This document shows, one piece after another, positions 2,864 through 27,563 of a stretch of 42,229 nt of DNA. Numbering within the stretch: position 1 is the stretch's first letter; the number at the start of each line of letters is the position of its first letter. Both the position numbers and the translations under genes were made by a program. Source of the stretch: Cytophagaceae bacterium (GTDB lineage: Bacteria > Bacteroidota > Bacteroidia > Cytophagales > Flexibacteraceae); assembly GCA_027485575.1 (NCBI GenBank), contig JAIXQU010000166.1, forward strand, positions 1-42,229. Reading direction: 5' to 3'. A model generated the notes under the pieces. The model did no database searches, was not told where the DNA came from, and worked only from the letters and a program-made list of their open reading frames with translations.

Positions 2864-4621
2864 TCAACCTTCCCGGTAAATCCTTTCAACTTCCGAAGCG
2901 TATTTTATCATTAGGTTTTTCCGCTTCAATTTTAAGGTTGGTGTCATTTCTCCAGAATCGATTGACCATGGGCCTTCAACCACCTCGATTTTTTTAATCT
3001 TTTCATATTGGGCGAGGGTTGCGTTCGTTTTTTCCAGCTCCTTCTCAAACTTTGCTTTGATAACAAGCTGATTAAGCATATCCTTTGGGGTGGTAAAGGT
3101 TATGTCCTTAATCTTACACCATTCCTTCAGGCCATCCCAGGAAGGAACAATTATGGCCGCAGGAAACTTTTCGCCATCTCCTATTACCATGGCCTGCTCT
3201 ATCACAAGGCTTTCTTTTAGTTTATTTTCAATGAGCTGAGGGGCAATGTATTTTCCACCGGAGGTTTTGAACATTTCCTTTTTCCTGTCTGTAATCTTAA
3301 GAAATTTCCCTTCCTGAAATTCACCTATATCCCCTGTATGAAACCATCCATCTTCATCGATTACCTCTGCAGTCAAATCTGGCCTGTTAAAATACCCTTT
3401 CATCACATTAGGCCCTTTGGTCAGTATTTCGCCATCGGGTGCAATTTTCACTTCCACACCTTCCAAAATTGGCCCAACGGCACCAATTCTTCGATTGGCT
3501 TCTTCGTATCGGTTTACAGAAATAACCGGACTGGTTTCTGTCAATCCATAACCTTCCATTACTACTATCTGGGCCGCTGAAAACACCCTTGCAAGTCTTG
3601 GCTGAAGGGCCGCCCCACCTGAAACTATAAATTTCACCTCACCACCCAAGGCCTCTCTCCATTTGTTAAAAATAATTTTATTTGCCAGACTGAGCTGAAA
3701 ATTATACCAAAAGCCAAGATCCTTATTAATTTCATACCGCTGACCTAACCCTAAAGCCCAAAAAAACAATGACTTTTTGATTCCGGTAAGCGCCTGTCCT
3801 TTTGCTACTATTTTGTCATAAACTTTTTCCAAAAGCCTGGGGACTGTACAAAAAAGATTGGGGTGAACTTCTTTCAGATTGTCACCAATGGTATCCATCG
3901 ACTCTGCATAAGCCACTGAAATTCCAATACTTATATACAAATAGCTAAGCATGCGCTCATAAATATGGCACAAGGGTAAAAAACTTAATGCCTTGCTGTC
4001 ACTCGAAAGTGGGAAACAAGGTGTGCATTCTTTTACATTGGTATAGAGATTATTGTGGGTCAACATAACGCCTTTTGGCCTACCTGTTGTGCCTGAGGTG
4101 TAAATCAAAGTAAGCAAATCCTTTGAGGTTACTTTGGCCAACATTTCTTCCACTGTTTTATCCTCAACAGATTTTCCAGAATCAATAAATGAATCAAAAC
4201 CATTGAATTTTACTGAAGGTTCAAAAGTAACGACGCCTAAAAAATCAGGAAGCTCTTTCCCTGCCTTTTCTGCTTTAATGGCAAGCTCATCATTGGAAGA
4301 GAAAACCATTTTTACATGCGCATCCTGAAAAATAAACCCAATATCATCATCAGTAAGTGTAGCATAAACGGGGACAGAAACGGCCCCAAGATATTGGCAG
4401 GCATAGTCTACCATATTCCATTCAGGCCGGTTGTTGGATATGATTCCAACCTTATCATCTTTTCCTATCCCACTGGCATAAAGGGCTTTAGCCAGATTTT
4501 TGGATTTATGGATGATTTGTTCCACGGTCAGGTCATGCCAAATACCATCTCTTTTAAACTGATAAAGAACTTTATCTGGAAATAAAGTCTGGTATCTAAA
4601 CAAATTATCTATTAGGCGCAT
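2864..4621 (-). CDS. long-chain fatty-acid--CoA ligase (AMP-forming)
   Basis: A 585-residue member of the adenylate-forming ANL superfamily, closest to FadD/ACSL-type long-chain acyl-CoA synthetases, which activate fatty acids to acyl-CoA through an acyl-AMP intermediate. Visible motifs: the P-loop YTSGTTGRPKG at residues 174-184, the A5 motif GYGLTETSPV around 360, and TGDIGEF followed by KITDRKKEMFKTSGGKYIAP in the C-terminal hinge region; the catalytic Lys of the small domain lies near the end (TLKLKRKNL). The ATG at 4621 is well placed for the family N-terminus. No signal peptide or membrane segment is evident. It converges on the E1 gene with a 53-base gap. With TetR and E1 it suggests an acyl-CoA catabolic neighbourhood; chain-length preference cannot be read from the sequence. 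Confidence 0.88.
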   Translation of the reverse strand: MRLIDNLFRYQTLFPDKVLYQFKRDGIWHDLTVEQIIHKSKNLAKALYASGIGKDDKVGIISNNRPEWNMVDYACQYLGAVSVPVYATLTDDDIGFIFQDAHVKMVFSSNDELAIKAEKAGKELPDFLGVVTFEPSVKFNGFDSFIDSGKSVEDKTVEEMLAKVTSKDLLTLIYTSGTTGRPKGVMLTHNNLYTNVKECTPCFPLSSDSKALSFLPLCHIYERMLSYLYISIGISVAYAESMDTIGDNLKEVHPNLFCTVPRLLEKVYDKIVAKGQALTGIKKSLFFWALGLGQRYEINKDLGFWYNFQLSLANKIIFNKWREALGGEVKFIVSGGAALQPRLARVFSAAQIVVMEGYGLTETSPVISVNRYEEANRRIGAVGPILEGVEVKIAPDGEILTKGPNVMKGYFNRPDLTAEVIDEDGWFHTGDIGEFQEGKFLKITDRKKEMFKTSGGKYIAPQLIENKLKESLVIEQAMVIGDGEKFPAAIIVPSWDGLKEWCKIKDITFTTPKDMLNQLVIKAKFEKELEKTNATLAQYEKIKKIEVVEGPWSIDSGEMTPTLKLKRKNLMIKYASEVERIYREG

Positions 4622-4798: not shown

Positions 4799-4826
4799 TT
4801 TAAGTATTTCTTAAGCCGATTTTCAT
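4799..4826 (+). promoter_or_regulatory. candidate OmpR-type response-regulator boxes upstream of the two-component operon
   Basis: TTTAAGTATTT (4799) is followed exactly 11 bp later by CTTAAGCCGAT (4810) and a weaker TTTCATG (4821). An 11-bp direct-repeat period is the geometry of PhoB/OmpR-family binding sites. The same kind of array lies at 6959-6991 after the kinase gene. A possible -7 element, TTGCTTTG, is at 4859-4866. Autoregulation by the adjacent regulator is inference. Confidence 0.45.
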
Positions 4827-4898
4827 GAAAAGCTTATCTGGAAGCCATTAGGTTTCACTTGCTTTGCAGTCAGAATATAGTGAAATTCTAATATTAAA

Positions 4899-5588
4899 AT
4901 GAACGAGTTAAGATTGTTGGTTTTAGAAGATGAACCCAAGGTAGGTGCATTTTTAAAAGAAGGCCTGGAAGAGCAAGGTTACATTGTAAATCTGGTAACG
5001 GATGGAATTCTAGGAAAGGCTGCTGTTGAAAAGTCAAAATACGATATGGCTATTTTAGATGTACTTGTACCCCACATTAATGGTCTTGAGCTTTGTTCTA
5101 TCATCCGGGAAAAGGACAAAAGCATTCCAATTCTAATGCTCACAGCGCTTGGAACAACTGAAAATAAACTAAAAGGATTTGAATCTGGTGCGGATGACTA
5201 TCTTGTAAAACCTTTTGAATTTGAAGAACTTCTGGCAAGAATAAAGGCTTTAACCCGGCGAGGGGCAGAAAGCCTGGAATCAGCCAATATGATTTCAGCC
5301 TTTGGACTTAGCCTTGATCTGGATAAAAAAAGAGCCAACCGGGGTGGGCAAACCATAAGCCTGACGGGTAAAGAATTTGGATTACTTGAATACCTGATGA
5401 AAGCAAAAGGAAGGGTGGTATCCAAGGAAGAAATTTCAGATAAAGTTTGGGGCGTGAATTTCGACACCGGTACAAATTTCGTTGAGGTTTATATCAACCT
5501 GCTGAGAAAAAAAGTAGATAAAGATTTTGATCAAAAGCTACTCCATACCCGATTTGGGCTCGGATATTGCTTTACCGATAAGCCATGA
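4899..5588 (+). CDS. OmpR/PhoB-family DNA-binding response regulator
   Basis: A 229-residue two-domain regulator. The receiver domain (about 1-120) has the acidic cluster E10-D11-E12, phosphoacceptor D54 (AILDVLVP), the conserved Thr in LMLTALGT and the Lys in DDYLVKPF. The C-terminal part (about 130-228) is a winged helix: LTGKEFGLLEYLMKAKGRVV and GTNFVEVYINLLRKKVD, ending in TRFGLGYCF. The stop overlaps the kinase start by 4 bp (ATGA), so regulator and kinase are translationally coupled. Sequence style resembles the CusR/ArlR-like group, but the signal is unknown; no metal-handling genes are adjacent. Boxes repeating every 11 bp upstream (4799) and after the operon (6959) are the natural target candidates. 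Confidence 0.93.
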   Translation: MNELRLLVLEDEPKVGAFLKEGLEEQGYIVNLVTDGILGKAAVEKSKYDMAILDVLVPHINGLELCSIIREKDKSIPILMLTALGTTENKLKGFESGADDYLVKPFEFEELLARIKALTRRGAESLESANMISAFGLSLDLDKKRANRGGQTISLTGKEFGLLEYLMKAKGRVVSKEEISDKVWGVNFDTGTNFVEVYINLLRKKVDKDFDQKLLHTRFGLGYCFTDKP

Positions 5589-6952
5589 CCATTCGGAATA
5601 AACTAACCTTACGGTTTTTCTTATTGGTTCTTGGAATCATTGGTGTTGCTTCCATTGTAATTTATATTTTTTCAGAACGACATAGAAAGGAAGATTTCTA
5701 TATCAGGCTGCGAAACAAGGCTGAGGCAACTGCCAAACTTTTAATTTCCGTGGATGAGATGAACGTTGATCTTCTCCACAAAATTGAAAAAGACAACCCA
5801 ATGACGCTTCCTGCAGAAGGAATTGTGGTTTGGAATTATAAAAATCATGTCCTTTTCGATACAGATAAAAAAGGTATCATCAAGCAGAATTCCTCTCTTT
5901 TAAACCAAATCAGGTTGGAAGGTGAAGTAAGAATGGAAAATGGCGATTATGAAATCCTCGGTTTTTTGTTTACTGATAAATACGACCGTTTTGTGGTATT
6001 GGCAGCTGCCAAAGATATTTATGGCAAAAACAGAATAAAAGATCTCAAATGGGTTATGGTTACAGTCTTTGGGTTTAGCCTTGGCTTTATCATTCTGGCA
6101 GGATGGTTTTATGCCGGTAGGGCTTTATTGCCCATTTCAATCATCATTGACAAAGTAAAACAGATCAAAATTTCCAGTCTGAACCTTAGGTTGGAGGAGG
6201 GAAACAAAGTGGATGAGTTATCTAAGCTTTCTCAAACTTTTAACAATATGTTGGCACGGCTTGAAGAAGGTGTAAAAATTCAGAAAGATTTTATTGCCAA
6301 TGCCTCACATGAAATGAGAACACCGCTTACTGCTATGACCGGTCAGTTGGAAGTAGCGTTGATGAAACAACGGACCGCAGAAAAATATAAAGAGGTATTG
6401 GAATCTGTTTTGGAGGACATAAAAAATCTAAACAAAACCTCAAACCGACTTTTGCTTTTGGCGCAGGCAAATACTGAAAATCTGGACCTTGAAATGGAAG
6501 AAATCCGGATTGACGACCTGGTTTGGCAAAGCAGAGAAGAATTGATAAAACTTCAACCCAACTATGAAATTATTGTCGATTTGGACATGAATCCAGCGTA
6601 TGAAAATCATCTTCAGATTATTGGAAATAGCCAACTTATAAAAACTGCCATAATCAACCTGATTGAAAATGGATGCAAATATTCTTTGAATCACAAAGCA
6701 GTCCTTACACTTAAAACTGAAAGATCAGGATTGACAATCATGATTTCTGATTCCGGAATTGGTATTCCAGACAAGGACCTCGACCATATTTTTCAGCCGT
6801 TTTACAGGGCATCTAACTCTACATCAGCCAGAGGGCATGGAATTGGACTTTCACTAGTTCAAAAAATTGTGCAAATCCACAAAGGAACCATCCGGGTAAA
6901 ATCGAAACTGGGCGAAGGCACCATTTTTACCATTGTATTTCCTGTATTATAA
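5585..6952 (+). CDS. membrane sensor histidine kinase
   Basis: A 455-residue kinase partnered with the preceding regulator. TM1 spans about 9-30 and TM2 about 155-177, enclosing an extracytoplasmic sensor region of about 125 residues that I cannot assign to a family. A HAMP linker follows (LLPISIIIDKVKQI to FNNMLARLEEGVKIQ). The H-box is FIANASHEMRTPL with phosphoacceptor H242. The ATPase domain shows the N-box LIENGCKYS, the G1 box DSGIGIPD, the F-box FQPFYRAS and the G2 box GHGIGLSLV, so it looks catalytically complete. The ATG overlaps the regulator stop. Domain order is that of CusS/ArlS-type sensors. Confidence 0.93.
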   Translation: MTIRNKLTLRFFLLVLGIIGVASIVIYIFSERHRKEDFYIRLRNKAEATAKLLISVDEMNVDLLHKIEKDNPMTLPAEGIVVWNYKNHVLFDTDKKGIIKQNSSLLNQIRLEGEVRMENGDYEILGFLFTDKYDRFVVLAAAKDIYGKNRIKDLKWVMVTVFGFSLGFIILAGWFYAGRALLPISIIIDKVKQIKISSLNLRLEEGNKVDELSKLSQTFNNMLARLEEGVKIQKDFIANASHEMRTPLTAMTGQLEVALMKQRTAEKYKEVLESVLEDIKNLNKTSNRLLLLAQANTENLDLEMEEIRIDDLVWQSREELIKLQPNYEIIVDLDMNPAYENHLQIIGNSQLIKTAIINLIENGCKYSLNHKAVLTLKTERSGLTIMISDSGIGIPDKDLDHIFQPFYRASNSTSARGHGIGLSLVQKIVQIHKGTIRVKSKLGEGTIFTIVFPVL

Positions 6953-6958
6953 TACCAA

Positions 6959-6991
6959 TTTAATTTCTTTTTAAGTTGAATTTAATCGGTT
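6959..6991 (+). promoter_or_regulatory. three TTTAA boxes with exact 11-bp period (candidate response-regulator site)
   Basis: TTTAATTTCTT (6959), TTTAAGTTGAA (6970) and TTTAATCGGTT (6981) are three direct copies at exactly 11-bp spacing, ending just before a possible -7 element TTCCTTTG at 7008-7015. The boxes resemble the TTTAAG/CTTAAG pair at 4799. From the last box to TTTG is 31 bp here; in the regulator promoter the corresponding distances are 42, 53 and 64 bp, that is 31 plus whole 11-bp steps, so the helical phase matches. This points to direct activation by the OmpR-type regulator. Confidence 0.5.
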
Positions 6992-7042
6992 GAATTCTTG
7001 CTTGCTTTTCCTTTGCATTGTACAAAAAAGCAAATTTCAACC

Positions 7043-7456
7043 GTGCAAAAAGGAGATATCTTTTCAAAAGTAAACAAATGGATCTTTTGCTCCTTCGGAT
7101 TATTAATATGCTTTTCCTCAGGCTATTTCATGTTTTACAACCAAAAAACAGAGGATGATTTAAAGAAAGTGAGAATTCTGGAAGAGTATTTATTGTCAGA
7201 AAAGCTAAATGCGGAAAGACAAGTACAAAAGCTTAACGAAATCAACGCAAGTCTATACATCGAAAATAAAGCCTTAAAAAAACAATTTGAATCTTTAGAA
7301 ATGAAGACAAAAAGCAACTCAAGTCTTGTGACTCAAAGACAAAAACCGAAAAAAGAAGGCCCGAATTTGCAGGAAGCCCACCTTACCAAAAGTAGCAAAA
7401 AAAATGAGGACCAACCAGACGGAACTGAAAACAGAATGACGATTTCGAGCCAATAA
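7043..7456 (+). CDS. small membrane-anchored coiled-coil protein, unknown function
   Basis: Not recognised as a known family. I choose the GTG at 7043 (137 residues). The in-frame TTG at 6998 would overlap the putative promoter and adds an unconvincing hydrophobic/Cys segment; GTG at 7043 leaves a leader of about 20 nt. The predicted protein has a short cytoplasmic N-terminus, one membrane span at about residues 12-32 (WIFCSFGLLICFSSGYFMF), a charged heptad-like coiled coil at about 34-85 (KKVRILEEYLLSEKLNAE and onward), and a polar, Lys/Glu/Ser-rich, probably disordered tail. It lies immediately downstream of the two-component operon behind three regulator-like boxes, so it may be a target of that system. 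The start codon is uncertain. Confidence 0.55.
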   Translation: MQKGDIFSKVNKWIFCSFGLLICFSSGYFMFYNQKTEDDLKKVRILEEYLLSEKLNAERQVQKLNEINASLYIENKALKKQFESLEMKTKSNSSLVTQRQKPKKEGPNLQEAHLTKSSKKNEDQPDGTENRMTISSQ

Positions 7457-7490: not shown

Positions 7491-7688
7491 ATGAAGCTCC
7501 TAAAAAAAATATATACTGAAGAAAACCAGCATGGTTATGCAGTATTAGAGGATACTTTTACCAAAGAAGAAACAATCATCACCATGCCTGCTGACCGTTA
7601 CACGAGATTTTTAAAGAAATTTAAAGACCTTGTTGGTCAGCAGGTGGAGGTGGCCAATGAATGGATTTTTCCTTTATCATCAAAATAG
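7491..7688 (+). CDS. 65-residue hypothetical protein
   Basis: A small basic/acidic soluble protein starting with ATG at 7491, 34 bases after the coiled-coil gene on the same strand and closed by a strong terminator at 7730-7761, which supports a real short operon end. It has no signal peptide and no membrane segment. The sequence (KIYTEENQHGYAVLEDTF, then ITMPADRYTRFLKKFKDL) reads as a small alpha/beta domain; I do not recognise a family. The tight fit between upstream gene and terminator is the main argument that it is coding. Confidence 0.6.
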   Translation: MKLLKKIYTEENQHGYAVLEDTFTKEETIITMPADRYTRFLKKFKDLVGQQVEVANEWIFPLSSK

Positions 7689-7729
7689 CGTACGCCAAAT
7701 TAAAAACTGGGGAGATTTTTTTCATGCAG

Positions 7730-7761
7730 AAAAGGCACCTTTACTAAGGGTGCCTTTTTTT
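7730..7761 (+). terminator. intrinsic terminator
   Basis: AAGGCACC (7732-7739) pairs with GGTGCCTT (7749-7756) around a 9-nt loop, with A-rich sequence before and a run of T after. It sits about 40 bases after the 65-residue ORF and ends the operon. Confidence 0.88.
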
Positions 7762-7825: not shown

Positions 7826-8167
7826 ATGAATTTTCTAGTCAACATGCTCATTTCTGCCATAGCAGTCGGCATTTCGGCTTTCCTGATACCTGGCATTAAG
7901 GTAGATGGTTTTTTTGAAGCCGTAATCATTGCTGTGGTTCTGGCCATTTTAAACAGGATTGTAAAACCTGCTCTTGTCCTTTTCACTTTGCCGATTACCG
8001 TTTTAACATTGGGTCTTTTCTACCTTGTCATTAATGTCCTGATGGTTTATCTGGCAGATAGGATTGTGAGCCCTGGATTTGAGGTGAGCAATTTCATATC
8101 TGCTCTTTTGTTTAGCATTGTGCTTTCCATTGTCAATTCGGTGCTGGATTCTATGGCTGGCAAATAG
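7826..8167 (+). CDS. YvlD-like four-TM membrane protein (phage holin family IV superfamily)
   Basis: A 113-residue, almost wholly hydrophobic protein with about four transmembrane segments (about 3-20, 27-45, 52-75, 88-108). The pattern LIPGIKVDGFFEAVIIAVVL, NRIVKPALVLFTLPITVLTLG and FYLVINVLMVYLADRIV is typical of the YvlD/DUF-type 'phage holin family' of small inner-membrane proteins that are widespread in bacterial chromosomes and not phage-derived. The physiological role is unclear; Bacillus YvlD belongs to a cell-envelope-stress regulon. It appears monocistronic between a terminator and a convergent outer-membrane protein gene. The 252 bases following it (8168-8419) hold no gene I can support. 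Confidence 0.8.
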   Translation: MNFLVNMLISAIAVGISAFLIPGIKVDGFFEAVIIAVVLAILNRIVKPALVLFTLPITVLTLGLFYLVINVLMVYLADRIVSPGFEVSNFISALLFSIVLSIVNSVLDSMAGK

Positions 8168-13504: not shown

Positions 13505-16500
13505 CTATCTGATTACCAGATTTATACTTTTGGTTACAGGCACTTCTGCTTCACTCAAGGAAGAGATTTGAAGCCTGTAAATTCCAGCTGGATAACCTCT
13601 TAAATCAAGCTTGACTTTTTGGTTTCTGGAACCATTATTCAACTGACCAGCAACCTCTTGTCCCAAAATGTTCAAAACACTTAAATACACCATTTCGGTC
13701 AAACCAGAAAGGTCCAAAGTGAAATCTCCGTTTCCAGGATTTGGATAAACAGTTGGATTAAATACTTGAATCTCCGGATTACAATTAAGGGGAAGTGAAT
13801 TAAAAATATTTTTCTTGCCTGTTCCATCCATCATGGTTAATCGAACCTGGTTAAAGCCAGAAGGAATTTTAGGTAGCATTATTTTATAATCACGTTCCTC
13901 ACCTGAGTTTCCAGCAGCATTGGTAGTGGCAATGGACTCCCAATTTTTTCCATTGGCTGAAGCTTCAAGGGTAAATGTTTTGGAATCTTTTTCTCTAAGT
14001 GTTTTCCAGATAAACTCTGTTCCACTTTTCCCTTTACAATTCAAACTGAAGAAAGCAAGATTAATATCTAAAGGATTGTTCAATTCAGAAGCTCCGGTCC
14101 ATTCTGAAAATTGAGGAATTCCGGTTTTTGTGATGGTATTACCAATGTCATCCAACACTGCATTCTGCACTTCCCAGTTTACTCCATTGAATCTCCAGAG
14201 GTCCAGTTCGGGCTCATTGATCGTTCCACTTGCTGTTACAAGTTCGTCATCAAAATAATTGAACACTAACTTGGCATTCAAAGACGAGTTATTGGTTGGA
14301 TGAATTTCGTATCGTCTGTTCAAACCAAAGCCCGTTCCAAACACGATCTGGGTATGCTTCCGGATAACCTGAGTCGACCCCAAATTGGCACTGGAAAAAA
14401 GGATGGCTCCTAACCCTGCCACATCCACATTAAAGGGGGCATTCAGATTGCGTATTGCCTCAATGGTTCCTCCCGACAATCCGGTAACCCGATTGAACTC
14501 TGTTTCATTGATAAGGTTTCCAGTGGAGCCAAGGTCTAATTTGAATCCATTTAACTCTACACCTCCGGACAATAAATTCAATTGGTTACTTACCGTAATA
14601 TCAGAACCTAATATGACATTCTGTGATGAGGTTGTTTTATTGACAACCAGGTTATAAAAGCCCATATTACCAGACACTGTGGAATTATTCAGTCCCACAA
14701 AAGTCACCGGCAAACTATTCGGCGTCAACGACCCGTTCACTGTTATGTCACCACCGATATTCAATGATGACCCCGAGCCCAGCACCAATGTTGATCCTGA
14801 ATTCACAAGTAGGTTGGCATTTGTAGTCAACGAACCTGAAAGGGTACTGGAAGCACCATTGATTGCCAGAACACCATTGCCATTGATTGTATTCGAAGCG
14901 GCATTCAGGTCATTATTCACCGTCAGCGTATATCCGGTTGGAATGGTAACCAAGGCTCCAGTCAAAAGTACCAGATCATTACACTGCCCATTTCCTCCTG
15001 AAATAAATGTTGGCTGATTGGCAACACTACCAATAATCGCTTTATCTCCGGCTCCAGGCACTGAGGCCGGAATCCAGTTGCTTGCCAGATTCCAGTTGCT
15101 GTTGGTGGTACCTATCCATATTTTACCTCCAACGGATTGACCAAGCTGGAAGTCACCGAAAGTAGTTCCGGAAATTGAAATTCCTTGAGTGGACGTACTG
15201 GTAATGCTACCAACGGTTGGTTGTGTCCAGGCACTGCTGCTATACCGGGCAATCATAAAATTGAGCGGGTTGGCTGAAACATCCAGGTCGCTGCCAATAA
15301 ATGTAAAGTCTGCATTATAACCCGTAAATCCTGTTACTCCTGAATTTGTTAAGCTCCAGGATCTGTTTGCAGATTTGGTTTGGTCAATGCCCGAGGTGTA
15401 TACCTGAGGATGGTCTCCTGAACTTGTATTGGCTGTAATGAAACCTCCTGCATTGGTTATTCCTGTATAGTTAATTGTTACCGGAGTGTAAGCTGTGGCA
15501 TCGCCAATCTGGAATACAGTTGTGGTGGCAGATGCTGGAATTCCCCTGCTTAGGTTTCCTGAAACATAACTGGTTGCAGATCCTCCGGAAATGGCAGCCG
15601 TTGAATTGACAATCATCTGGTTGGCACCTGTGGAGAAAACTCCGGCAGTCAGTGTCAATTGGTTGGTTACAGTCAAAGAACTGGTTAACGTTTTGATGCC
15701 CGCTCCGTTTGCCGCCAGATTATAAAAGTTCGTTGAACCCGTTAATGTCTGGCTTCCTCCGTTCAGATTTACCGTTCCGCTTCCGGAACTAAATCCCCCT
15801 ACACCCACGGTATTTACCCAATTGCCCATCAGAGAAACGTTCTTATTGTTTGGGTTGGTCAGGACGCCCTGAGAGATCGTGAGGTTTCCATTGACCGTAA
15901 TGTTTGCATTTGGGAGATTCTTAGTGGCAGAGCCTGTGAGTTCTACATTGTTATAAGTGCTTTGTGTACTGATAGTGCCGTTGGTTGTACCTCCGAATTC
16001 GAAAGTACCGCCAGAGGAAGTGATGAATGCCGAATAATCACCACCTGGAAAAAGATACTGGTTAGTAGCCGTTGCTGTTTGCTGAATTCTACCTGTACCG
16101 GAAACAGTTCCGAAGTTATGGGCAATGGTATTTCCAAGATTGAGCGTTCCGTTAACAACAACTGAAACAGCATTTCTTGTATTTCCAGTAACATCAATTG
16201 TATGGCCAGCTGAGATTACAGCCTGGTTGAAGTTTGGAAATGTGAAAGCAGCAGCACCTGCATGTTGCAGAGTGGCATCGGTTGACCAGGAATTCGGATC
16301 GTCCCAATTACCTCCTAAGGTTGCGTTTCGGCTGTAGAACGTGCTTAAAGTTCCAAATTCTGTGGTTTCACCAACAGTAAAATCACCATCAAAGTAATTG
16401 ACCCCTGTGAGCGTAGATTTGTGGTTAATGGCATCAACTGTACTTGCTATTCCGGCATTTGGTGCCCAGGTGCTGGTTAAAAACCGGCCTGTTACATAGC

Positions 16501-19500
16501 TCGCTTCATTCCCTTCTACATCCAATGGCTCGTAAAAATACGTGTGGGTCACAACTGTGCTTCCATTAAAACCTGTTGAACTTACTCTCCAATAATATTC
16601 CAGTTCTTTATTGTCTGGATCGGTGGTCGCTGGATGCCTGGTATCTACTGATTTTAAAGTGATTGTTCCTGCTACAGTGTTTGAAGTAACATTGAAGCGA
16701 ACGGGAGTATATTTCAATGTAACTCCTATAGGAAAAGTAAAGTCGTGGGCACTTGCGGGATAAGATTTCGTAACACCCGCATCACTTGTAACTCCATTTA
16801 CCCGAATCATATTGGAACTTGAAAATAAGCCAGTGACCGCACTTGAAGCACCCAGGCTTAGTAGATTGTTATTGATGTAGAAAATACCATTCGCAATATT
16901 TAGATTTCCGGATAGAGTAACAGGAGATTCTGCCACAACCCCTGCTGAATTTGAAATCCTGATGCTTCCAAAATTGGCTGTGGCTCCTGACACTATGGAT
17001 TGGCTCACGCTACCCCCAAATACCAGAAAGCCAGTTCCGGTAGAAGTATGGCCACTATTGTTAACTACATCCAATAAAGTGGTGCAAAGGTTTGCTCCGG
17101 TATTGAAAGTACCCGTGTTCAGATTTAACTTCCCATTTACCTGCAAATTCGTATTTGACCCAAGTGTTATCTGACCTCCAGAAAATGAATTTTGAATTGT
17201 AAGTACCCCAAAGTTGGTGAGATTTCCCAAAACCCCTGATATGGATTGACTTGCTGTGGAACTTGAAAAAGTAGTTACCTGTGAGGAATTACCTGCCTGA
17301 TATCCCCCAGCATTTACACCGGTTGTAGCTAAAGGATTCTGGTTTACCAGATTACCTCCAATAGTTACATTTAATGAGTTTGCAATAAAAGAAGACCCAC
17401 CTTCTATCCGAAGTGTATTCTGAAGCGTCAAAGGATTATTGTTCAGGGTAAGACTTTTACTTGTGGTGGTACCGTCTATGGTAAGATTATTCAATGGAAC
17501 CTGAATATCAGCAACAAAGTTCATGGCAGCGGTAGTTGCACTGGTACCGATTTTTACTTCCCCACCCGTTACAGAGTTGGAAGATGGGTCTAGGAAAAGG
17601 TCTTTAAACAAACCGCTGGCAGCACCCACCCGATCAATAATCAAAGTAGAATTGCCAGACATGTTAAACTGGGAACCCGAATTCAAAATTTCTAGTTTGG
17701 CACGGTCGAGATTTGCGGACCCTGACTTACCCCTGATTGTCACTGTACTTGTTCCGGATTGGGTATATTTCAAAGAACCGAACTGGCTAAAAATCGATCT
17801 TCGGATCTGGCCGTTTACATTCAAAGCACCTGATCCCGAAATGGTTAGTTCCGGAATGCCATTGCTGGCGTATTCCAGGTCATTACTTTGGTTAAAAGCA
17901 CTGTTTCCAACGTTGATTATGCCTGCCAAAATGGTTAAATCACCTACGAGCTTTAATTCAGCATTAGCGGCATTTACATCGGCTATGGACACATTAGCTC
18001 CTGAATTATTCAATGTAAAGGCCCCGGTAGATGGAATGGTAAAATCAAATCCAGCGGTATTTGTTAATGTAATGCTTCCTGATTTTGACCACTTCAAATT
18101 TCCACTTTGAAGGTTTAGCCAATTGTTGGAAGGCGCAGAAAAAGTTCCAAGGGTGCTAACTTCCAGCTCTGTAGCCGAGCTCGTTCCTTTGTTGATAACG
18201 AGTCCGCTCAAGGAAACAGAAGCACCAGCATTGGAACCATTAAATACTTTGGAACCCGGCCCCTGAAAAGTAAGGGTTGCTTTTGATGCATTATTAAAGC
18301 TAATGACTCCTTCGTTAAAAAAGTTTCCATCCAAATTTAAGATGTGTGTTACAGCCCCTGTATTTGCCGTTTGAATGCCCCCGTTGGTGTTGATGGTGAT
18401 GTCGTCCTTTACATACAGGGTCTGGGCAAAGGCATCGCCGAATTCCAATCTGCCAGAGGTTGCCAACAAATCGAAATTGATGGTCAGATTACGGGAAGCG
18501 GCATTTGGAAGCAAAGCCTTTCCAGTACTGGAACCATTGATTTCCAAATTATTATAAATCAATAAATCTTTATCGGGGAAAGTGATCGAACGGGATGCAC
18601 CCGGATTGATCAAAAGGTCTTTATAGGTATCAATTGAAATCACATTTGGTGCATCGGTAACCGAAGGGATAGCAAAATCCTGTGAGCCCGTTGTGTAATA
18701 TTCCGTCTTTCCTCCTGTGCTCTGAAAAAACAATCCAAAGTCCCCTGCCGGAAAAACCGCCGAAGACACGGCCGAAGAAATCCTGATGGTACCCGAACCT
18801 CCTGCGGTCGCATAAGGAATGGCGCCAAAATTATTACCTGTGGTCGTTTGACAATCAAGTATAGAGCCCGAATTAACAATCAAACTTCCGGAAACCGTTC
18901 CGTTTGTGGTTACTGTTACGGTGTGGTTATTTGAACCTCCATCACCGATCAATACAGGAGAATTTGAGGAAGGGATACTGGCACTGGCCGCTCCCCCAAA
19001 TGCTATGTTTGACCAGGTTGAAGGCGTGTTCCAATTTCCATTTATTCTTGAGTAATAAGGAGTAACCACGCCAAAAGCGGAAGGATCCCCAGCTGTGTAA
19101 TCCCCATCTGTATAGCTGACACCCGTAAACGAGATATTTTGGCTTGATTCGTCAACTTTAGTAACATCATTTATGGTGGTATAGGCAATGGCCAAATCAT
19201 TGTAATATGCCGGAATGTAGGTTAGGATGGAACCTGTGGATATGGCTGTACCATAATTAAAAGTATAGTTAACCGAATTGGCTGGTATTCCAGAGAAACC
19301 GCTGGTCTTAATTTTCCAGTACAAATCGAAACAACTGGTGCTGGTTACATACAATTGTTTGGTTCCAACGGGTCTCACATCCAGGGCACCCCAGGTTGTA
19401 GGTGCAGATGAAAATTGAATGGTTGCCGGACTGTAGACGGTTCCATATCCAAAGGGAAATGTGACGGCTGCCGTTGAACTAAAGGTTTTTTTGATGCCCC

Positions 19501-22500
19501 CATCCGAAAGCAATCCATTTGTTTTAATAAATCGATTGGTGGAGAAGGAGCCGGTTATGCTGCTGCTTTCCGAAAGTACGATTTGTTTATTGCCAATGCT
19601 GGCGATCCGGTCGGTTGTAAGCCCGAGGTTTCCATTGATTTGAAGATTACTGAAAACGGTAATCTGTGTAGATCCTGCCGCCCCGTTGGTATTTGAGAAA
19701 TCCAGATTTCCAAAAATGGAAGTTGTTGTTCCTGAAATGGTTTGCCCTGTTGTACTGCTGTTTAATACAATCTTTCCTGTGCCGCTGTGGGTTCCGTTGT
19801 TTACAATGTTTCCTCCTACATTGATTGTCTTACCTGCATCGGCAAGCGTTCCGGCTGTCAGGGTTACATTGGCTCTGACTGTAATCGGGGTTAAGGTTCC
19901 GGCAAGTGTTAAAGTATTACCTGGTTTATTCACAAGCCAGGAACTTAAGCCCGTCCCTAAAGATCCACTGACGGAAAAAGTCTGTGCTCCTGACCCATTG
20001 AAGGTGGTTGTGTTCGTAGTGGATTGGTATGTACCTCCGGAGTTAATGGTAAAATTTCCTCCCACGGTCACATTTGAATTTAAGGCATCAAACACAGGAG
20101 CGTTGGTACCATTAATGGTGAAATTATTTAGAACCACCAAAGGCTGGGCTGAGGCAGTTCCTCCAAACCAATTCATTCCATTCAATCGGGCAGTTCCTCC
20201 AGCCCCTGCATTTCTTGAAATGGTCAGGTTATAAAATGGGGCTGTTGAACAGATGTCAAAATTAAAAGCGGCTGAAGGGGTAATGGTTACGTTTACGGTT
20301 CCGCCGGTAACTTCAAAATTATCTGGAGAACTTGCGATTAATATTCCACCGTTCAAGGTTGTACCACCAGCCACAGAGCGGGTAATATTGATGGTTCCTC
20401 CCGACATTTTGAAAACATTGTCGGGGTACCCAAGGTTGAAAACGGCAAAATCCGTCACCCATCCCCCAGCTGTATTGTTCAGATTAAATGTACCCCCTGA
20501 CTGAAAGTAAGATCCTCTGGGCACAGGGGTAAAATTGGAAGTCCGTAAAAGTTTGGCCGAAACGGTTCCTCCTTCAATTAATAACTGTCCCTCATCCCGG
20601 ATGGTAATGGTTCCGGCAGACCCAGACATTAAATCAACCGAACCTGCTGTTACCCGTAAGGTACCATACAAAACAATGGAGTTTGAACCATTAAAAGTAA
20701 TATTGGCTCCATCTACCCAAAGAGTAGGAACTGCAGTGGCGCTTCCCAGATCGTAATTGCCCCCAATATCTCCCATACTTGGAATGGTAACATTGGATCC
20801 TACATGGAAGGTTCCTCCAAGCACATCAAAAGTGTTTGCATTTGCCCAAAATAAGGGGCTGGCACCAGAAGCAGCTGACAAAAATAATTCGTAGCCAAGA
20901 TTCTTATTGACTACGAAAGTATAGAACTTGGAACTACTTCCGGAATTACATGTAAATGTAGTATTGGCACTTCTTCCTAGGAAGTTAATGGTTGCTGCTC
21001 CAGTGGTAGGTGTGCCATAAGCAACTCCGATGTTATTCAGGGTTATGGTTCCTGAATTGGTGAGATTTCCTGAAAGATTGATTACATGTGCATTGGTATT
21101 AAATAAACCTACGTTTAAGGTAGTGCCAGTTGCAACGGTTAAATTTCCAAGTATGTTTAAAGTTCTGGCTGTGGTCGAATTGCCTAAAGTAAAGGTTACC
21201 GTACCAGCACCTGTCTTTGCCATAGAAAGATTACCATTGATGGTAATATTATGATCCTGAACCACCGAAAAATTTGACCCGGTGGAATTTGTAATGACTA
21301 AATTGTTATAGTTGGCAAGTGCAGAACTCAGGATATTCACTCCGGATGGCAAGTCATAATATTCAAATGTTCCTCCGGAGGAGGCTGTAAAGTTTGTGAA
21401 ATTTGCCGTTGGGAGGGTTACAGTTGATTGTCTCAATAACCCTGAACCAGAAATCGGACCAAAACTATGTCCAGTAGTAGATCCCAGATCTAAAACAGCT
21501 CCATTTTCAATGTCCAAAGATCCGGTAAAAAGACCAGCAGCAGAATTGGTTACCGTTCTTCCATTCAGGATAAATACCTGATCACCTAATCCTGGAACAG
21601 CTCCATTAATGGATGTAGTTCCGGAAGGGTCTGTTGTCCAGGTACCTGGTGTATTCCAATCACCGGTCACATAGGAATAAAATGCATTTCTTACAGTTGG
21701 GTCAATTGCCGTCCAGGCACCTGTCAAAAATGTAGTTCCGGTAGTTGAGAACGGATTAGAGCCAGGAGCACTTGGCCCGGTTACAGGTGCAAGCGTAGAT
21801 CCGTTCCAAACCCTTGGCTCATAAGCACCTACGCTACCAATCACTTCGCCCGCATTGAATATGAAAGAAATATTTGCTGCAATGGCTGATAGATTGGAGG
21901 TAGAGATATCCCAATATTTTACCAAAGCATTGTTGTAGTATGGAACATTGGGTTGCTTTATCGGAACGGCTTTCATGGATATGGAACCCGTACCTGCAAC
22001 CGTGGCTGAAAGACCCGATATCGTAGCAGGGCTATAAAAGCCGATTGATCCCAATGGGAAAATACCTGAATTTTTTGAGGCTGACGACCATGAAAATCCA
22101 GTTAACTGTGCTGCTGAATTTCCATTTATGATCAAAGATCCTGAACCATTGGTTACAATCATTTGGTTTACACTGAAAGTACCGTTTGTATTTACTGTTC
22201 CTGCTTTAATTCTTCCACCGGCATTAAGCGTTAAATTTGCAGAACCTAAAGAAACCAATAGTGGAACGGTCAACCGCATGGTATCCGATACCGAGGTGTT
22301 TCCGGTTAATAACTTTGTTCCGGATCCTCCAAAATTTAATGTCCTGTAATTGGCAGATGCAAAAACGGTTTGGTCTCCTGCTCTGTTGTAGTTCACGGTA
22401 TTACCAGCAACGGTTGTGAATCCCGAAATTGCATTCGTGGATCCGTTTAAGGTTAATACGTTTCCGGCATTGGCCGACATGTTGATAGAACCAAGCCCGG

Positions 22501-25500
22501 ATAGATTTGCCGTTACCGTAATTGTTCTTGCGGCTCCTGTGTTGTAGGTCAGGCTGCCGGCATTTATTGTGAGGTTGTTGGCAACATTCAGTGTCGTGCT
22601 GTTCAGATTCAGAATGGCCCCGGATTTGTTCACCGTCATGTTGTAAAACGATCCATTGGAAACCGAAACAATAGTTGGAGAAGTGTTTGAAGCAAAAGTT
22701 TGTGTAGATGGAATCGTGCTGGTAAGTGTTCCGGTTGTTTGGATAAAATCGCCATTCACGGTAAAATCGCCAATGGTTTTGACCACATTGGTCCCTGAAA
22801 TTGTGAGGTTGTGGTAGGTGGTACTTAAGATGGTTTGGGTCGTTCCATTATACGTAACAATATTAGTGGCAGCGCTGGCATCTAAGGAGCCGGTTGTGCT
22901 AAAAGGGGTGTTGGTTCCGGCGTAGGTCAAAGCAGCCCCATTCGCGTTTGTCCATTGTTCACCTCCGGTGGTTCCGTCCAGGTTTCCTGTGATGATGGTT
23001 GATTTAGAATTCGTTACCGTGATTCCATCGCCGATTAATACATTACCTCCAAATGTTATGGCACCGGCTCCGGAACCATTGATGGCCTGATTGTTGGTTG
23101 AAAACAAGGTCGTTCCTGTACTGAGGTTGGATGCACCACTTGAGTTTTGGGTTATGCCGTTTCTGAATTCCCAGGTTGGATTTAAGGTAATACCCGAAAT
23201 GGTACCTGTCCCGGAAAGTGTAGTTAAACCTGAAACCAAAATAGCCCCTGTTCCACTTTTAGAAAAGGTCCCGGAAATGTTGAGGTTGTTGGTCGTAACG
23301 TCAAAAGTGGACCCTTGAAACGTAGTTCCGTTTGCTACGGTTAAGTCACCGGAAACAACGAGATTCTGGAAGATGGTCTTTGTGTTATTCCCACCCGTAT
23401 TAAGGTTAAAATACCCCGAGGTAGAACGGATATTTTGGGCGGCTGCTGCAGAATAGGTCACCGTATTTCCTCCGGCGTTCGCTGTAAGGGAACCTGTTGG
23501 GATAAAACTGCCACCTGCCGTATAAGTTAAGTTTGCGTTTACCCCATTGGTTAGGTTTGAGCCACCCGTTGTTCCGTTGCATGAGTTTGCAATGGTGAGC
23601 GTTCCGTTGTTGGTTAGGCTGATGTTGGCAATGGATATGGTGTTGATGGTGTAAGGGGATGTGCCATTTAAAGCCTGGTTGTTGGTAGAAAAGGTAACGG
23701 TCGGGGCAGTAAGACTGAATGTCGTTCCGTTATGGGTAATGCCATTTCGGAAATCAAAAGGCGAACTATTGGCTGATGAAAAGGAACAGCCAGCACCAAT
23801 GGTAACCTGTCCTGTAAATATGTTGGATCCGCCATTCGCATTATCAGAGAAGATCCCTGTACCCGAAAGATCAAGAGTGGAACCCGCCGTAAAGGCTGAA
23901 TTGTTGGTATTAAGCGTTCCGGTCACCGTAATGGCACCCGTTAGATTAATCGAACCAGTTGTACTGCAGGTCATTGTTCCGGCAATGGAAGATGTACCTG
24001 TAACTGAAGAACTAGCAGTCCCTGCCAGAGTCAAAGCCGTAGTACTGTTTGCCAGACTTAGATTTCCACCTATTGCGAGGCCCGCATTAAATGTAACGGT
24101 TCCAGCTGTTTTGGAAAGGTTAAGGTCAGAACTGGCGGTGGCAGCACCTGTAAAAGTAACGGCGCCAGCTCCCGAAATCGTTTGCGCTCCTGTGAAGGTA
24201 ACGGCTCCGGCACCGCTTTGATTAAAGGTTCCTGTTGCTATAATTCCTCCACCAAATTCCAGCGGAGCTGTACTGCTGACGGAAAATATTCCGGATGAAA
24301 CAGTTACCAATCCATCAAATCGCTTTAATCCACCGGCAACAGCCGAAATGGTTGTTCCCGTAGAAGAAGTAGTTCCTAAAACGGTAAATGTTCCTGTCTG
24401 GATAATGGTGGTGGTAAGCGTCATAGCCAGGGACTGCAGGGTAATATTGCCTCCTCCACTCACTGTAAAATTTCCCAACGAAGTAAGACCTGCACCCGTA
24501 AAATCAATGTTTCCAGTTGTTGTTAAATTACCATTGAAGGTAACGGGTACTGCACCGGAACTCGAAACTGTAATTCCGGTTGCCACTGTTGTTGCACCGA
24601 ATGAAAGGGCATTTCCCTGAAGGATTTGATTATTAGTAGAAAATGTGGTGAGACCACTACCCGTTATTGCAAACGTTCCATTATTGGTAATCCCTCCTCT
24701 GAATTCATAAGCTGGATTGGAAGAATTGGTAAAAGAACCTCCTATATTAAGGGTTACCAATCCATCAAAGCGATTTAACCCTGCGGCTGTTGCATCGGTA
24801 AAGCTACCAGTGATGTCTGTGGTTCCGGTAACTGTAAAATTACTTCCGACCGGACTTAAAGTAGACCCCGAATTAATGATCAGATTTCCACTGATTAGCC
24901 CTACACCCGTCACAGTTGCGGAGCTGGCATTCGAAAGAGTCAGGTCATTTGCAACCGTAAGAGTCGAACCAAAAGCGATTGCTCCAGCTGATTTATCTAA
25001 AATCAAAGAAGCAGAAGCTGTAGCAGTCCCCGTAAAAGTAACGGTTCCAGCGCCGGATATGGTTTGAACTCCTGTGAATGCGACGATACCTGTCCCAGAC
25101 TGGTTAAAAACTCCTGTCGCAAGGATTCCTGCCTGGAACTCTAAAGGAGCAGTACTGGAAGAAGACATGGTTCCGGATGTTACCGTAACCAAACCTACAA
25201 ATTTCTTTAAGCCAGCGGTGGCAGAAATAGCAGATGCACCTGTAGAAGCGGTGGTACCTAAAACGGTCAACGCTCCTGTCTGGCTGATGATGGTACCGTT
25301 TAAGCTTAGTGTCTGAACGGTGATATTTCCAACTCCACTGGCCGTAACGGCGCCAAAAGTAGTGGTACCCGCACCTGTAAAATCCAGGGTTCCCGTGGCA
25401 ATCAGGTTTCCGTTTAATGTAACTGGTACTGCCCCAGTTGTTGAAAGGGTAATTCCCGTATTAACGGTAACCGCATTAAAGGTGCAGAGATTACCTTGAA

Positions 25501-27331: not shown

Positions 27332-27395
27332 AGACTTGTAGGGTAGACCAGAGATGTGAAACTCTGAGACAGAAATATTGATTCTTTGGAATATG

Positions 27396-27428
27396 CAAAA
27401 GTAACTGGAAAAGATACTATTTTCCAAA
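27396..27428 (-). promoter_or_regulatory. Bacteroidota-type promoter of the giant gene
   Basis: On the minus strand TTTG (27428-27425) is followed after 21 bases by TACTTTTG (27403-27396), exact matches to both the -33 and -7 consensus. Transcription would begin near 27390, giving a leader of about 60 nt to the ATG at 27331. This decides the start codon against the upstream ATG at 27445. Confidence 0.65.
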
Positions 27429-27563
27429 TCAAATTGATTTTTCATTTATATGTTTGGTATAAAACCAAGAAATAGGAAAGAAAAAAAAGCTGTATGCGTA
27501 TTCCGGATTATACTTTGACAAGAAAAAAAACTTTTATTTTTTTTTCTTAGTTAAAATTAATCG

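Follow-up and report, generated by a model that had tools for sequence, protein, structure and literature searches.

Phased direct-repeat arrays as predicted operators flanking a CusR/CzcR-like two-component operon in a Cytophagaceae bacterium

The PmrA regulators read short direct repeats. YTTAAK half-sites have been tested for Salmonella PmrA and the Acinetobacter PmrA site has TTTAAG units repeated in direct orientation 5 bp apart (PMC10927774), while half-sites of the form CTTAAT/CCTAAG are known for Klebsiella PmrA (PMC3973317). The PHO box of PhoB and the arrays of Streptomyces PhoP are composed of 11-nt direct repeat units that are bound head-to-tail, sometimes as multiple units (PMC4415409). 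A further group of regulators, including CopR, PcoR and AgrR, recognizes inverted repeats, with a 6-4-6 arrangement in the case of AgrR (PMC7380067). Few two-component operators have been mapped in the phylum Bacteroidota, and we found no described operator of the kind reported below for this phylum in the open-access literature searched.

Two arrays around a two-component operon

We analysed a stretch of 42,229 nucleotides, referred to here as the window, from a draft genome of a Cytophagaceae bacterium (3.9 Mb, 198 contigs). Within it, a response regulator gene and a sensor histidine kinase gene overlap by four bases and the kinase has a CusS-like layout (Table 1). A preliminary description had placed boxes at 4799 and 4810 before the regulator gene and at 6959, 6970 and 6981 after the kinase gene, and TTTAAG/CTTAAG and TTTAAT/TTTAAG/TTTAAT, respectively, are indeed read at these positions. 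The 11-bp repeat that it reported also stands, but the unit is not one of two or three boxes, for weaker boxes in the same register complete four slots on each flank; the first of the downstream slots overlaps the kinase stop codon. The half-site in the window is YTTAAK/YCTAAK with N5 between slots, and the slots match it at 6, 6, 5 and 4 of six positions in the upstream array and at 5, 6, 6 and 6 in the downstream array. At both flanks the distance from the last slot to an TTNCTTTG octamer is exactly 21 bp. These octamers fit five of the six positions of the Bacteroidota -7 consensus TAnnTTTG, which has been described in Flavobacterium as the -7 box of sigma-A promoters (PMC9723704). From the last perfect box to the TTTG, the distance is 53 bp on the upstream side and 31 bp on the downstream side, a difference of 22 (2 x 11), and the earlier claim that these distances differ by multiples of 11 bp was thus borne out. 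Elsewhere in the window (13505-27445, minus strand) lies a gene for a very large secreted protein (4646 aa) that is repetitive, has a sorting-type domain at its C-terminus and by eye resembles cargo of type IX secretion.

Table 1. Features of the two-component locus, by position in the window
Feature	Position	Strand	Remarks
Long-chain acyl-CoA synthetase	2864-4621	opposite	Upstream; named by eye
Predicted operator array before regulator gene	4799..4837	+	Slots 4799 TTTAAG, 4810 CTTAAG, 4821 TTTCAT, 4832 GCTTAT; period 11 bp
Putative -7 element TTGCTTTG	4859..4866	+	21 bp past fourth slot, regulator side
Response regulator, OmpR/PhoB family, CusR/CzcR-like	4899..5588	+	TIGR01387, 233.3 bits; recognition helix NFVEVYINLLRKK
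Sensor histidine kinase, CusS/CzcS-like	5585..6952	+	HAMP, HisKA, HATPase_c; TIGR01386, 217 bits, under cut-off
Predicted operator array after kinase gene	6948..6986	+	Slots 6948 TATAAT, 6959 TTTAAT, 6970 TTTAAG, 6981 TTTAAT
Alternative -7 element CTTGCTTG	6997-7004	+	10 bp past fourth box, downstream array
Putative -7 element TTCCTTTG	7008..7015	+	21 bp past fourth box, downstream side
Coiled-coil protein, inner-membrane-anchored	7043..7456	+	137 aa, one TM, GTG start; first gene under downstream array
65-aa protein	7491..7688	+	Family unassigned; 34-bp gap to coiled-coil gene
Intrinsic terminator	7728..7760	+	15-bp stem, 3-nt loop, T-run; -18.8 kcal/mol, z -4.9
PF04020 membrane protein	7826-8167		Separate; downstream of terminator

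Both intergenic regions contain just 27-30% G+C, and boxes of this kind could be thought to be chance matches within AT-rich DNA. The looser pattern TTTAA-N6-TTTAA, with one mismatch allowed, indeed showed no enrichment in the window (17 found against 19.2 expected), whereas the stricter YTTAAK-N5-YTTAAK occurs three times against 0.35 expected from dinucleotide shuffles, with only 2 of 100 shuffles reaching three. Genome-wide, this motif has 23 matches on both strands, three of them in the window, compared with 53 for the backward-read control pattern; being rarer than its control, it is not part of the common AT-rich background. With no more than one mismatch allowed, the four-slot array has a single occurrence in the genome, at 6948. 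In Markov simulations of DNA of the same composition as the two intergenic regions, the upstream array had P = 0.0011 and the downstream array appeared in none of 20,000, and when an in-phase -7 element was included, the values were P = 0.0001 upstream and again 0 of 20,000 downstream. With P values of about 0.001 or less, a motif that is rare in the genome, and an architecture that is kept in relatives with zero matches at other periods, the probability that the boxes arose by chance appears negligible for this locus, and for the family as a whole that explanation is already refuted.

Recurrence beside related kinases

For comparison, loci were drawn by kinase similarity, nearly all from the same order of Bacteroidota; some close relatives are included and the locus counts in places do not represent independent events. 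Downstream of 64 kinases, pairs of YYTAAK hexamers were found 39 times at 11 bp, 26 times at 22 bp and 13 times at 33 bp, with at most five pairs at any other distance, and the signal was about zero within the kinase coding sequences and on the other strand of these first 64 loci. The motif had first been noticed in about 30 loci of the first set. A further set of 40 loci, which was collected later and hence is the fresh test, gave 40 pairs at 11 bp, 25 at 22 bp and 14 at 33 bp. We defined a strong array as four slots scoring at least 22/24 and located up to about 300 bp from the kinase stop codon, and such arrays follow the kinase at 44 of 103 loci, as opposed to none of 103 for four-slot arrays with periods of 8, 9, 10, 12, 13 or 14 bp. 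About half of the 103 related loci examined lack a strong array beside the kinase. In four cases (loci L151, L214, L215 and L072), an array lies upstream of the regulator and faces a divergent gene. Requiring three boxes and a TTTG in a strict pattern proved too rigid for use when tried over 59 relatives.

The array is also set at a characteristic distance from the promoter element. Thirty-three of the 44 arrays are followed after 10, 21 or 22 bp by a sequence that matches TAnnTTTG at 5/6 or better, and the distribution of gaps is sharply peaked, being exactly 10 bp in 24 of 41 arrays and 21-22 bp in 6 of 41. At 21 bp, the gap in the window thus exceeds the usual 10 bp by one turn, and this, together with the weaker match of the upstream array and the loci that lack a strong array, counts against the best explanation given below.

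The nearest orthologue by kinase (67% identical) is found at locus L071, in a metagenome-assembled genome labelled Hymenobacteraceae. It too has an acyl-CoA synthetase neighbour, and carries an nhaD-like antiporter gene between the synthetase and the regulator. An array with slot matches of 6, 4, 6 and 4 lies directly upstream of this nhaD-regulator-kinase operon and is followed, after 21 bp, by TTTCTTTG. The array has therefore been kept at the head of the operon in this lineage in spite of changed gene content, which fits autoregulation. The autoregulation predicted by the preliminary description is likewise favoured by the arrays with the same -7 spacing beside other related pairs. The nhaD-like gene of L071 would begin almost at the predicted transcription start (2021-2050, TTTCTTTGCATATGG), which suggests either that its mRNA has no leader or that the start was misplaced.

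Regulator class and proposed control

The arrays would be a variant of the tandem operators of the OmpR/PhoB family. The regulator belongs to this family by its receiver (PF00072) and winged-helix (PF00486) domains, both well over their gathering scores, and its closest protein family is the CusR/CzcR/CopR/PcoR/AgrR group, with TIGR01387 and TIGR01386 as the best NCBIfam matches of the pair. TIGR01387, although top-scoring, stays below its cut-off of 279.2 bits, and the scores for the PmrA (150.5 bits, cut-off 330) and QseB (149 bits, cut-off 345) equivalogs are likewise below theirs. Identity to the Escherichia coli regulators is 44% for CusR, 37% for QseB and 34% for BasR. Many relatives adjoin CzcCBA-type efflux genes, and RND efflux is present, for example, at L072, L113 and L143, whereas the window operon has no RND metal efflux genes within about 4 kb on either side. 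Moreover, its arrays are direct repeats, unlike the inverted repeats of CopR, PcoR and AgrR, and do not resemble the ATTACA/GACA-type inverted repeat of CusR/CzcR operators.

By predicted operator, the window operon is instead close to PmrA/BasR and QseB, with which it shares the half-site (direct YTTAAK repeats with a 5-bp spacer), the 11-bp period and the direct orientation. When E. coli sites were scored in the same way as a control, eptA and pmrR reached 12/12 and qseB and ygiW 11/12, but cusC and cusR only 8-9/12. The PmrA-type site at pmrR, a small membrane gene, offers a further likeness to the 7043 gene of the window. The differences are that the PmrA/BasR and QseB operators have two half-sites whereas the arrays here have four, that these E. 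coli regulators are just 34-37% identical to the window regulator, and that theirs is a sigma-70 promoter while the window has the Bacteroidota -7 element TAnnTTTG. The PhoB and Streptomyces PhoP arrays also share the 11-nt direct units, some of them multi-unit, but differ in sequence (CTGTCAT, GTTCACC), signal and regulator subfamily. The recognition helix, which presumably sets the DNA specificity, reads N-F-V-E-V-Y-I in the window regulator, N-T-L-E-V-H-I in BasR, N-A-V-E-V-H-V in QseB and N-A-I-D-V-A-V in CusR, and the window helix (N.VEVYI..LR.K) is nearer to BasR and QseB than to CusR at the E and Y/H positions. D/E-V-Y is found in the helix of all 84 readable relatives, whether or not an array was detected.

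We consider it highly probable, judging from the sequence comparisons, that the boxes are operators of the regulator encoded between them, serving autoregulation and activation of the 7043 unit. The kinase would phosphorylate the regulator, which would dimerise through its receiver domain and, by analogy with PmrA and PhoB, bind head-to-tail to the 11-bp repeats. Since the helical phase between each array and the -7 element downstream of it is fixed, the bound regulator would most likely recruit the primary sigma factor and thereby activate two promoters, one for its own operon (positive autoregulation) and one for the coiled-coil membrane protein together with the 65-aa protein. With a 10-bp gap, the promoter-proximal boxes would lie over the would-be -33 region, and a 21-bp gap would give the same phase one turn further out.

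Binding followed by repression, or by opposite effects at the two promoters, would be in keeping with a 21-bp gap where 10 bp is commonest, given that some OmpR-family regulators, such as MtrA, repress from shifted positions (PMC7380067). We regard this as unlikely because the array lies upstream of the -7 element and the start site and not over them, and because 21 bp preserves the helical phase of the 10-bp arrangement. There is also the question of which regulator reads the arrays. In E. coli, several regulators of the same cell, BasR and QseB among them, read PmrA-type half-sites; in the present genome, a paralogue (47% identical) with a similar DNA-binding domain is encoded on contig C154. 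Control by this or another OmpR-family regulator is nevertheless quite improbable, as the arrays recur beside kinases of the window kinase's family and the regulator at 4899 is the only one in the genome flanked by arrays. A truncated kinase (36% identical) lies on contig C151; it and the C154 regulator are both near contig ends and may represent one operon divided by assembly, and no four-box array is present beside either on the available sequence. Direct activation by the regulator at 4899 remains our preferred reading. As for the signal, one might guess at an ion or envelope stress, since the closest operon carries nhaD and other operons carry transporters, while the window has no metal genes.

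The coiled-coil gene and outputs in relatives

A genome scan for four slots with at most three mismatches returned nine matches, against a larger number for the backward control, and a phased -7 match of 5/6 (at 10, 21 or 32 bp) accompanies the four slots only at the two window arrays. The scan for a regulon suggested by the preliminary description thus recovered the arrays of the window but did not turn up another convincing array with an in-phase -7 element elsewhere, and since only these two combine both features, the predicted regulon probably comprises the regulator's own operon and the 7043 unit, with the operator confined to this locus. Matches in a sigma-70 promoter scan were no more frequent than in shuffles, as expected for Bacteroidota.

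The 7043 gene starts 28 bp past the -7 element. The gene for the 65-aa protein, for which 58 other genomes of the order yielded no relative, is probably co-transcribed with it because the gap is only 34 bp and the terminator, which closes this unit, stands behind the 65-aa gene. Membrane-anchored coiled-coil proteins recur as the first gene under arrays in relatives. Among the nine closest kinase relatives (42-67% identity; L071, L072, L073, L151, L152 and L213-L216), one lies directly under an array in six (L072, L151, L152, L213, L214 and L215), and the nearest orthologue (G002/L071) lacks the protein. Searched alone in the relatives, the 137-aa protein gave no convincing homologue, and the link came through its position and a profile. 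The TM-proximal profile (x-DSLLSxKL motif) matches the window protein with E ~0.002 among 4,027 frames, a score above those of all 2,000 shuffles of its own sequence, and this is the profile's only match in the whole genome. There is good support for the protein as the positional counterpart of the array-linked coiled-coil proteins, and modest support for its homology to them.

The direct control of the coiled-coil gene foreseen in the preliminary description is accordingly made more plausible by these recurrent first genes and by the repeated arrays and -7 spacing. The need for a GTG start, the lack of a Pfam family, the weak profile match and the absence from G002 would suit the alternative that the frame at 7043 does not represent a genuine output gene and that the downstream array serves another purpose or is a remnant; we give this very little weight, in view of the start position, the strong terminator that closes the unit, the unique profile match and the positional counterparts. 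The idea that every one-TM coiled-coil protein of Bacteroidota lies under an array was rejected, as just 3 of 16 further homologues had one. We also observed a broad unnamed family in the same order (L283-L298, e.g. G062:C130, G100:C217 and G118:C15), whose proteins of 290-330 aa carry a single TM helix at the N-terminus, a long coiled coil and a C-terminal domain of beta-rich appearance. Most members checked have no array, and those scanned had no Pfam or NCBIfam match over cut-off.

Reading of translations indicated that the first genes under arrays in relatives often encode TolC/CzcC-like, CzcB-like or CzcA-like efflux proteins, SulP-type transporters, MgtC-like, UspA or DabA-like proteins, or trehalose-phosphate synthase. 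It is possible, though we hold it with considerable doubt, that a CusR/CzcR-like lineage of Bacteroidota moved from inverted-repeat to PmrA-like direct-repeat recognition, that one rigid promoter code, with four half-sites repeated every 11 bp at a constant phase to the -7 element, plugs its sensor into varied outputs, and that the coiled-coil protein is a third component feeding back on the kinase. If so, a single sensor module would serve metal efflux, SulP-type and DabA-like transporters, MgtC-like proteins, UspA and trehalose synthesis. Apart from this reading, the fixed layout should allow regulon membership in a large family of Bacteroidota regulators to be read from sequence. It also sets DNA specificity apart from overall protein similarity, pairing a CusR-like protein with a predicted PmrA-like site, and the unnamed membrane coiled-coil family that it ties to these sensors is a lead for accessory or feedback components.

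Arrays before SulP-type transporter genes were seen at ten loci (L110, L126, L133, L136, L165, L229, L232, L236, L238 and L244), and before a gene for a DabA-like protein at L154; L219 has a carbonic-anhydrase-like protein, and one branch of the regulator family may control the uptake of inorganic carbon or anions. At L118, L158, L159, L164 and L169, which represent several genera, a gene for an MgtC-like membrane protein follows the kinase gene, and the array is at or overlaps the end of the kinase gene. In addition, four- or three-box arrays precede trehalose-phosphate synthase-like genes near related two-component operons at L166 (2979) and L074 (8860, minus strand).
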